Positions 13,964-15,908 of a stretch of DNA of 46,858 bases are shown here, in pieces. How positions within the stretch are numbered: position 1 is the first letter of the stretch; each line of letters opens with the position of its first letter. A program made the position numbers and the translations under genes. The DNA is from Brasilonema sp. UFV-L1 (lineage in GTDB: Bacteria; Cyanobacteriota; Cyanobacteriia; Cyanobacteriales; Nostocaceae), in contig NZ_QMEA01000038.1 of assembly GCF_012912105.1 (NCBI RefSeq), forward strand, positions 1 to 46,858, read 5' to 3'. Below the pieces are notes generated by a model. It did no database searches, was not told the origin of the DNA, and saw nothing but the letters and a program-made list of their open reading frames with translations.

Positions 13964-14122
13964 GGCGTTGCTGAATCAGCGTATGAATTGTCATTCTGAG
14001 CGTAACGAAGTGAAGCGTTAGCGCAGCGTGTCCGCAGGACATAGAATCTCTGCAGATGCTTCATTTCGCTTCGCTACATTCAGCATGACAAAACTAGATT
14101 CATACTTCAAATCAGCAACGCC
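13964..14122. mobile_element. Non-autonomous palindromic (MITE-like) element at the permease stop codon
   Basis: A 159-bp element with terminal inverted repeats GGCGTTGCTGA (13964-13974) and TCAGCAACGCC (14112-14122), and largely self-complementary inside (TGTCATTCTGAGCG left against CATTCAGCATGACA right). It is flanked directly by the 8-bp direct repeat GTCATAAT at 13956-13963 and 14123-14130, as expected for a target-site duplication. It encodes no protein. The left repeat contains the permease stop codon. Confidence 0.78.
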
Positions 14123-14160
14123 GTCATAATAATACCATTTCTTTGTGAGGCTGCGCCAAA

Positions 14161-14351: not shown

Positions 14352-14360
14352 TGCTAAAAT
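14352..14360 (+). promoter_or_regulatory. Extended -10 promoter candidate for the synthetase leader
   Basis: TGCTAAAAT matches an extended -10 (TGn followed by TAAAAT). No good -35 is placed 17 bp upstream, which is tolerated with an extended -10. It predicts transcription starting near 14367 and a leader of about 240 nt, a normal length for a T-box leader. Confidence 0.4.
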
Positions 14361-14366
14361 GCATTC

Positions 14367-14609
14367 AACTCATTGAAGAGGAAAGACCCCTCTGAGAGGT
14401 TCACCTGAAAAGGAAATCTGCAATCAGACTATAAACTGATTTAGATAGGCATTAGTAAGGTGAAACGTAGCTGCAACGAAACTGCAGTAATTGAGTGCCA
14501 CATTCTTGTGCTAGCAAGCAAAAAAACCGAGTGTGTGGAAGCTGGATGGCACCGCCGTTGATATGGTTCCAGTACTTAAACAATAGTCGTTGTTTGCGAA
14601 CCGTAGCAT
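14367..14609 (+). promoter_or_regulatory. T-box-like tRNA-sensing leader of the aspartyl-tRNA synthetase gene
   Basis: The 3' part has the layout of a T-box antiterminator. Arm CTGGA (14542-14546) is followed by the 7-nt bulge TGGCACC (14547-14553), GCC (14554-14556), an 8-nt loop, GGT (14565-14567) and TCCAG (14568-14572). GCC pairs with GGT and CTGGA with TCCAG. The family consensus bulge is TGGNACC; N here is C, which would pair with the G discriminator base of tRNA-Asp or tRNA-Asn. A competing 8-bp helix pairs 14562-14569 (TATGGTTC) with 14598-14605 (GAACCGTA), 5 nt before the ATG. No T-run follows, so control at translation initiation is more likely than termination. Upstream hairpins: AGAGG/CCTCT (14377-14393), AATCAG/CTGATT with outer ATCT/AGAT (14416-14446), and CTGCA/TGCAG (14471-14487). 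I could not place the canonical Stem I loop E motif or a unique specifier; AAC at 14434 and GAC at 14427 are candidates. Confidence 0.65.
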
Positions 14610-15908
14610 ATGGTGAGTCCCACACGTACACTTATTGGCTCCCTTCAATCGTCACTTTCAGAACAAGTTCTTATTCGCGGATGGATATATCGTTTGCGAG
14701 AACTTGCTAGAACAACATTTATTATTGTTAAGGACTGTAGCGGCGAAGTTCAGTGTGTTGCTGATTCAGCTTCAGTTCGAGAAATGTCTCTCAAGCTGGA
14801 TGAACCAGTTGAAATCAAAGGGAAGGTAAAACCTGATCTTCGCTCACGCGGTGGTTTTGAGATAGAAGTTATTGATATTTCCATTTTAAATCGCGTTACT
14901 CATCTTGTTCCTTTTAATTCTTGTTCAGATATTTCAGAAATTGGAATTGACACAATTTTGGCTTATCGTCCCTTGTCACTTCGTAATGATAGCGTTGGCA
15001 ATATTTTCAAGATTCAAGCTGCAATTCTACATAACTTTCGTCAATTCTTGAGAGAGCAACACTTCAGCGAGATAATAACATCCAAAATCGTCTCCAGTGG
15101 AACGGAAGGAGGAACAAATCTCTTTGAAATCAAGTACTTTGAACGCTCAGCATACCTTGCTCAAAGTCCCCAATTTTATAAAGAACAAGGCGTGGCGGGA
15201 TTGGAGAGGGTTTTTGAAACAGGTCATGTTTACCGCGCTGAACCTCACGCCAGTAGTCGTCACCTCACAGAATATTACTCCCTAGACCTGGAAATAGGAT
15301 TCATCCATAGTCCCGAAGAGGTCATTCAGTTGGAGAAAGAACTCTTGAGTTATGTATTTGAGCGACTTAACCAAGAGTACGCTCACCTACTAAAAAAGTA
15401 TCGAGACAAGCCTCTTCCAGAAATAATTAACGCCCCTACATGGGAATTTGAAGAATGTCTTGAGCGACTGCATCTGCACTTTAATCGTACTGACCTTGTA
15501 GACGACTTAGATCCAGAAGCGGAACGTCAGCTTTGTCAACTTGCAGAGTCAGAAACTGGAATTCCAGCCGTTTTTGTTATAGGTTTCCCACTTTCAGCGC
15601 GACCTTTTTACACGCACCCTCGTGGTAATAACGGGGCTTCGCAAAGCTTTGACCTTTTGTTTGAGGGTGTTGAGATTACGACGGGTGGGCAAAGACTTCA
15701 TAAGCGAGAGGATTTGGAACAAGCACTCACAAACCGTGGTATTCCTCCAGCCTCATTTGAAAATCATCTTCAGATGTTTGAAATGGGTATGCCTCCACAT
15801 GGTGGGTTGGCTATTGGTTTGGAAAGACTGACTGCACGAATATTGCATCTTTCCAACGTCAGACAAGCAACGCTTTACCCACGAGATAGGTATCGAATCT
15901 TTCCGTAG
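14610..15908 (+). CDS. aspS: Archaeal-type aspartyl-tRNA synthetase (aspartate--tRNA(Asp/Asn) ligase)
   Basis: A class IIb synthetase of 432 aa that charges tRNA-Asp, and possibly tRNA-Asn, with aspartate. It has the short archaeal/eukaryotic-type architecture without the GAD insertion of the roughly 590-aa standard bacterial enzyme. The N-terminal OB-fold anticodon-binding domain covers about residues 1-105 (VLIRGWIYRLRELARTTFIIV). The catalytic core has the motif 1 region (FREQ-like FRQFLREQHFSEIITSKIV), SSGTEGGTNLFEIKYF, LAQSPQFYKE, motif 2 FETGHVYRAEPHASSRHLTE, and motif 3 GGLAIGLERLTARIL near the C-terminus. The position that distinguishes discriminating from non-discriminating archaeal enzymes (Trp or His after GWV) is Tyr here, so tRNA-Asn use is undecided. 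The gene is isolated, preceded by a T-box-like leader and without a clear Shine-Dalgarno. It is probably a second, acquired synthetase. Confidence 0.9.
   Translation: MVSPTRTLIGSLQSSLSEQVLIRGWIYRLRELARTTFIIVKDCSGEVQCVADSASVREMSLKLDEPVEIKGKVKPDLRSRGGFEIEVIDISILNRVTHLVPFNSCSDISEIGIDTILAYRPLSLRNDSVGNIFKIQAAILHNFRQFLREQHFSEIITSKIVSSGTEGGTNLFEIKYFERSAYLAQSPQFYKEQGVAGLERVFETGHVYRAEPHASSRHLTEYYSLDLEIGFIHSPEEVIQLEKELLSYVFERLNQEYAHLLKKYRDKPLPEIINAPTWEFEECLERLHLHFNRTDLVDDLDPEAERQLCQLAESETGIPAVFVIGFPLSARPFYTHPRGNNGASQSFDLLFEGVEITTGGQRLHKREDLEQALTNRGIPPASFENHLQMFEMGMPPHGGLAIGLERLTARILHLSNVRQATLYPRDRYRIFP

Follow-up and report, generated by a model that had tools for sequence, protein, structure and literature searches.

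The stretch of DNA analyzed here (the window) is contig NZ_QMEA01000038.1 of Brasilonema sp. UFV-L1 (assembly GCF_012912105.1), 46,858 nt in length. Positions 14610–15908 of its + strand encode an archaeal-type aspartyl-tRNA synthetase of 432 amino acids (AspRS2, gene aspS2), which the genome carries in addition to its housekeeping AspS and AsnS. The gene had been predicted to encode an aspartyl-tRNA synthetase, and the protein bears this out, with a class II catalytic domain and an OB-fold. The bacterial AspS of the same genome scores 863.7 bits against its own family (cut-off 443). As aspS2 starts at 14610, the region in front of it is the 5' leader of an amino-acid related gene.

Among 20 loci, no conserved neighbor of the gene was widespread outside the Calothrix group, and the comparison thus gave no operon partner. 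Homologues of the protein in plasmid (110 records) and phage (20 records) sequences were all less than 60% identical. A MITE-like element of about 160 bp (13971–14130), with imperfect inverted ends gcgttgctgaatcagc and aatcagcaacgc seen by eye, lies in the gap that separates the leader from the transporter genes.

Architecture of the leader

T-boxes are known chiefly from Gram-positive bacteria. The original prediction was of a T-box-like leader and proposed a covariance-model check. This check aligned the leader (14364–14574) with the Rfam T-box RF00230 over the full model length (positions 1 to 219), with a score of 48.5 bits (E 1.2e-9, under an E-value threshold). The Rfam scan of the window gave no family at its own gathering score, which for the T-box is 93, a curation cut-off and not an anatomical feature. 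The gap in the alignment is Stem I, where 5 bases stand for 74 model positions; the score lies under the gathering score because this stem is ultrashort. At E 0.01, T-box matches were obtained in three of eight further loci, the remaining five giving none, and three of four leaders of the family also matched (L048 did not). The matching leaders scored 41.4–64.3 bits, all below 93, and the family shows how compact T-boxes can escape detection.

All leader features described here lie on the + strand. The original prediction had located no canonical Stem I or unique specifier codon; a Stem I and a specifier were found, in ultrashort form. Stem I (14369–14398) is a kink-turn hairpin with the sequence CUC-AUUGA-AGAGG-AAAGACC-CCUCU-GA-GAG, as read off the Rfam alignment. 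It comprises a CUC/GAG base helix, the kink-turn AUUGA/GA, an upper helix of 5 bp and a 7-nt loop, AAAGACC, that holds the specifier GAC (14385–14387), an Asp codon. GAC is present in all 20 leaders aligned, in 19 by alignment column and in the 20th (L041) in a loop one base shorter. The second loop base is variable and the others are invariant. The GA/GA sequence pattern of the kink-turn is present in 19 of the 20 leaders (exception L042), and one stem pair is C-G in G023 against G-C in the other 19. A C stands 3' of the specifier, a position at which a purine is preferred in the T-boxes described so far, according to the source passages of PMC7583486. The leader has no sequence for a distal Stem I elbow-binding motif (IDTM), which is defining for long-stem T-boxes alone; section 6.2 of PMC7583486 describes the motif as absent from ultrashort and intermediate translational T-boxes.

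A candidate −10 promoter element with a TG extension, TGCTAAAAT (14352–14360), would place the transcript start at about 14367, at Stem I. If it is the promoter, little room is left for a longer Stem I. The element is missing from the output of a sigma-70 consensus scan. TANNNT at an equal distance from Stem I occurs in 13 of 21 leaders, namely those of all 12 cyanobacteria and the Oligoflexia, and in none of 8 acidobacterial leaders; the TG extension is present in 7 of the 21. A hidden longer Stem I was considered and dropped.

Downstream of Stem I, Stem II (14400–14464) is closed by UUCACCU/AGGUGAA and contains an S-turn formed by GAA (14407–14409) and AGUA (14454–14457), motifs found in 17 and 19 of the 20 leaders, respectively. 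It is followed by the Stem IIA/B pseudoknot (14466–14488), in which CGU pairs with ACG and the loop GCUGCA with UGCAGU. Stem III (14493–14540, CCACA/UGUGG) is preceded by the purine string GAGUG and followed by AA, and the corresponding RRRxG and AA flank it in all 20 leaders.

The antisequestrator occupies 14541–14573. Its helix A1 is GCUGGA/UCCAGU, and the 7-nt bulge UGGCACC (14547–14553) separates A1 from helix A2, which ends in a G-U pair (14554/14567). The predicted antiterminator, CTGGA + TGGCACC + GCC ... GGT + TCCAG, is thus exact at 14542–14572. The gapped pattern has one site in the window and none in 100 shuffles, and the short core TGGNACCGCC by itself is present in 16 of 100 shuffles. 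A chance motif was considered as the source of the T-box likeness and dropped. The UGGN-ACC bulge of 7 nt is seen in 19 of the 20 leaders; the terminal A2 pair is G-U in 15, G-C in 4 and A-U in 1. Table 1 of PMC7583486, in the part available, lists the purine string RRRxG–Stem III–AA and the 7-nt UGGN-ACC bulge as T-box features and describes the terminal G-U pair of A2 as a steric sensor of the aminoacyl group. The leader thus has nearly every part of a T-box, both in sequence and in structure.

A tRNA-Asp gene of the genome has the anticodon GUC and the discriminator G73. GUC fits the specifier GAC, and G73 fits the C of UGGC, as had been expected from the bulge. In 11 of the 20 leaders the variable base of the bulge is U, which can form at best a wobble with G73. 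The target had been given as tRNA-Asp or tRNA-Asn; the specifier GAC points to tRNA-Asp in preference to this pair.

Conservation and distribution

Protein searches and the Stem I pattern yielded 22 further genes of the AspRS clade, 23 with the window: 12 from cyanobacteria, 9 from acidobacteria and one each from Oligoflexia and Myxococcota. A complete leader was recognized by model R1 in 21 of the 23, namely in all 12 cyanobacteria, in 8 of the 9 acidobacteria and in the Oligoflexia. L049 has no leader, and in a member of the Solibacteraceae (L045:2453-2488) the leader is reduced to the 3' antisequestrator part. L077, which was found via Stem I only and lies outside the training set of R1, scores 136.6 bits across the whole model.

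The alignment of 20 leaders (A1) excludes L007 and L008, which share genomes with L034 and L051, as well as L045, L049 and L077; alignment A2 further excludes the near-identical L039, L040, L050 and L051. One structure accounts for the 20 leaders, with 96.5% of 737 cells paired. When the partner columns were slid by 1–3 positions, pairing fell to 37.3–49.6%. Both sides have changed in 18 of 37 pairs, against a shuffle mean of 8.9, and none of 500 shuffles was as high; kinship alone can lift sequences above shuffles, an effect to which pair and type counts are the least sensitive measures. In Stem II, both sides have changed in 6 of 7 pairs and 100% of cells are paired, and in Stem III both sides have changed in 3 of 4 counted pairs. 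Stem IIA is paired throughout (100% of cells). Helix IIB, with 75.7% of cells paired in one half and 92.5% in the other, is the weakest part of the whole structure across the 20 leaders, and in a free partner search for the pseudoknot some rows land away from the expected place. The comparison of orthologous leaders that had been proposed gave a conserved UGGN bulge and arms, with covariation.

Two members of the clade have interrupted genes. In L035 (4742-6296, Pleurocapsales), an in-frame stop occurs at codon 240 and the bulge is reduced to UGGUA-GCC with the loss of two bases; this may reflect joint decay of the gene and its switch, or an error in the sequence. L056 (5001-6108, acidobacterial, gp5) combines a complete leader with an interrupted reading frame, and its branch in the tree is very long; the interruption may be an assembly frameshift. 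In the six leaders of the Calothrix group (L037–L040, L050 and L051), an AACCC/GGGUU hairpin and a U-run stand immediately before the AUG.

AspRS2 orthologs were found in 4 of 98 relatives searched and in none of 6 other genomes of the genus. A covariance-model search of 386 cyanobacterial genomes returned the window alone, which is no proof of absence because six candidates were scored per genome. The Stem I pattern, with the specifier free and as many as 3 mismatches allowed, was present in 1 of 386 cyanobacteria, the genome of the window itself, and in 2 of 396 acidobacteria; the cyanobacterial rate is a rough lower figure, as four other carriers lie outside the genomes searched. The same pattern gave exactly one match in each of 6 genomes with a known locus, and every site found in these pattern searches reads GAC. 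With GAC fixed, it gave no match in viral contigs.

A quick tree places the clade beside Limnochordia and Clostridiales, with a support of 1.0 for the joint node and 0.02 for the node of the clade itself. No match to R1 was obtained in L052–L065, of which L052–L055 were also scanned with Rfam. A long-stem T-box (104 bits) precedes the aspS2 gene of L054 (Clostridiales). This leader (L054:3666-3950) contains two UGGCACC motifs and one Rfam T-box, over the first. The joint occurrence of leader and gene in three phyla fits transfer together, and we infer that the two may have moved between phyla as one unit.

The predicted start-codon helix and alternative readings

A competing helix of 8 bp had been predicted between 14562–14569 (TATGGTTC) and 14598–14605 (GAACCGTA), and it is perfect at these coordinates; the AUG at 14610 is four bases beyond. 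The larger predicted sequestrator (14556–14612) pairs CGUUG-UAUGGUUC (14556–14569) with GAACCGUA-CA-AUG (14598–14612) and so includes the start codon. Against shuffled downstream sequence, this duplex has p 0.010 in the window, 0.010 in G053 and 0.007 in L034. G023 has a helix in the equivalent place with p 0.37, and none of the 16 other leaders of the 20, Calothrix included, is above chance. The two exclusive folds of the original prediction are accordingly modeled above chance for the window, G053 and L034, 3 of the 20 leaders.

Free folding of the 3' part forms a helix over the AUG region in the window, G053, G023 and L034. When the antisequestrator was forced, the mean openness of positions −18 to +3 rose from 0.17 to 0.33 in the window, from 0.31 to 0.61 in G053, from 0.23 to 0.64 in G023 and from 0.34 to 0.59 in L034. 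Openness increased in 12 of the 20 leaders (in some by just 0.01–0.02), was unchanged in 4–5, and decreased in L035, L041, L046 and slightly in L056. In the six Calothrix-group leaders the change was at most 0.02. These tests of openness and competition exclude L045, L049, L007, L008 and L047 (no ATG where expected). In the window, G053 and L034, the start-codon helix is predicted to compete with the antisequestrator, which suggests translational control.

Control through transcription termination instead of translation would agree with annotated T-boxes, which are overwhelmingly transcriptional in the source passages of PMC7583486. It would also agree with the AACCC/GGGUU hairpin and U-run right before the AUG in the six Calothrix-group leaders, and with the hairpin followed by U5 in three acidobacterial leaders (L041–L043). 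However, the competing helix of the window is predicted to pair the AUG, and the same passages associate ultrashort stems with translational T-boxes. We consider termination unlikely. No terminator-like site was found on the + strand of the window 3' of the antisequestrator, which makes translational control the best reading there.

A T-box for tRNA-Asn, or for both tRNAs, would serve a tRNA-dependent route to asparagine through a non-discriminating AspRS and GatCAB. AspRS2 passes the NCBIfam model NF003483, 'aspartate--tRNA(Asn) ligase' (470.2 bits, cut-off 353), and the closest protein in the PDB is the non-discriminating AspRS2 of T. thermophilus (1n9w/3kfu). The tRNA-Asn likewise has G73, and a two-codon T-box was reportedly described in Clostridium by Saad in 2013. 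The protein stays under the cut-off of TIGR00458 for non-discriminating AspRS, though (327.7 of 368.4), the genome has an AsnS (682.2 bits, cut-off 414), and all 20 leaders have GAC, not a codon for Asn, as their specifier; this reading is quite improbable. A decayed or fortuitous look-alike without function would explain the Rfam score of 48.5, below the gathering score of 93, and would suit L035, with its bulge short of two bases and its in-frame stop, and the interrupted gene of L056. Against it stand covariation spanning three phyla, the open gene in the window and the conserved specifier and bulge, and we regard it as highly improbable.

Counted against a tRNA-Asp T-box are the sub-gathering score, the loci that gave no Rfam match, the C after the specifier, the U in the bulge of 11 of 20 leaders, a modeled competition that is above chance in just 3 of 20 and the leaders in which openness falls. 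Counted in its favor is a start region that, in the window, G053, G023 and L034, is predicted to open up once the antisequestrator forms. The translational T-box of the original prediction is supported by the covariance-model match, the conserved bulge and arms, and the covariation. Taking computed sequence, conservation, covariation, tRNA fit and predicted folds together, the leader is very probably a translational T-box riboswitch sensing tRNA-Asp.

Proposed mechanism and comparison with known systems

In the mechanism that we propose, the free 3' end of the tRNA (G73-CCA) would pair with the bulge UGGC and stabilize the antisequestrator. The stabilized antisequestrator would exclude the start-codon helix, and the spare AspRS would be made. 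With charged tRNA the second contact would not form, the leader would refold and translation would stop. Binding of tRNA-Asp, the response to charging and the direction of control are what the sequence would imply, and aspS2 would then be a reserve AspRS made on uncharged tRNA-Asp. We offer more tentatively the idea of a self-contained, horizontally moving emergency cassette, in which an archaeal-type AspRS is held off by an Asp ultrashort T-box and comes on only when tRNA-Asp is uncharged. The trigger might, as a guess, be the blocking of the housekeeping AspRS by a natural inhibitor. Extra synthetases that give antibiotic resistance are a subject of the review PMC9437257, in the portion available.

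For 13 genomes of cyanobacteria, a survey from 2008 gives a T-box count of 0 (PMC2494555, Table 3, as excerpted). TBDB, in the excerpt of PMC7778990, sought translational T-boxes in Actinobacteria, along with long-model matches with truncated Stem I. Titles and abstract beginnings of the open-licence papers found on the subject contain no report of a cyanobacterial or acidobacterial T-box. If our reading is true, this would be, as far as the searchable literature shows, the first cyanobacterial tRNA-sensing riboswitch described and also the first T-box of the ultrashort type to read Asp. Asp would be added to Ile, the sole specificity that the source passages give for ultrashort T-boxes. The family would also offer a natural test of the minimal Stem I for anticodon reading, and it is a candidate case of a regulator travelling between phyla with its gene.

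The same gene family carries T-box leaders in Actinobacteria (Nonomuraea, L078; S. cattleyicolor, L080) and in Paraclostridium (L081), where Stem I, by our own reading, is longer than in the ultrashort leaders. The matches in L078:2236-2456 and L080:2230-2464 score 63.5 and 43.2 bits, below the gathering score, and in both GAC immediately follows GAA. Model R1 finds no match in L078 or L080 and a weak one (21.3 bits) in L081. The long-stem T-box of L054 and the longer-stem actinobacterial leaders fit a history in which the T-box would have been inherited, lost length in Stem I and moved with its gene between phyla.

Short-stem translational T-boxes are described from Actinobacteria, with ileS as the example, in the passages available of PMC7583486 and PMC10651847. 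Those passages, and a residue-number reading of the Nocardia farcinica ileS T-box (PDB ID: 6UFM), show a likeness to the aspS2 leader in the Stem I kink-turn with the specifier near the apical loop, the Stem II S-turn, the IIA/B pseudoknot, the discriminator and the predicted translational logic. A kink-turn hairpin as Stem I with the specifier in its loop, as in the ileS type, is present here, the likeness being drawn from published descriptions alone. In contrast to the ileS type, the aspS2 leader would read Asp (GAC) and not Ile, has C and not a purine after the specifier, and would control an extra archaeal-type AspRS; its hosts are cyanobacteria, acidobacteria and Oligoflexia, and the predicted OFF helix of the window leader pairs the AUG itself. 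Judged by its sequence, the leader would be the known T-box machine with a new specificity and new hosts.
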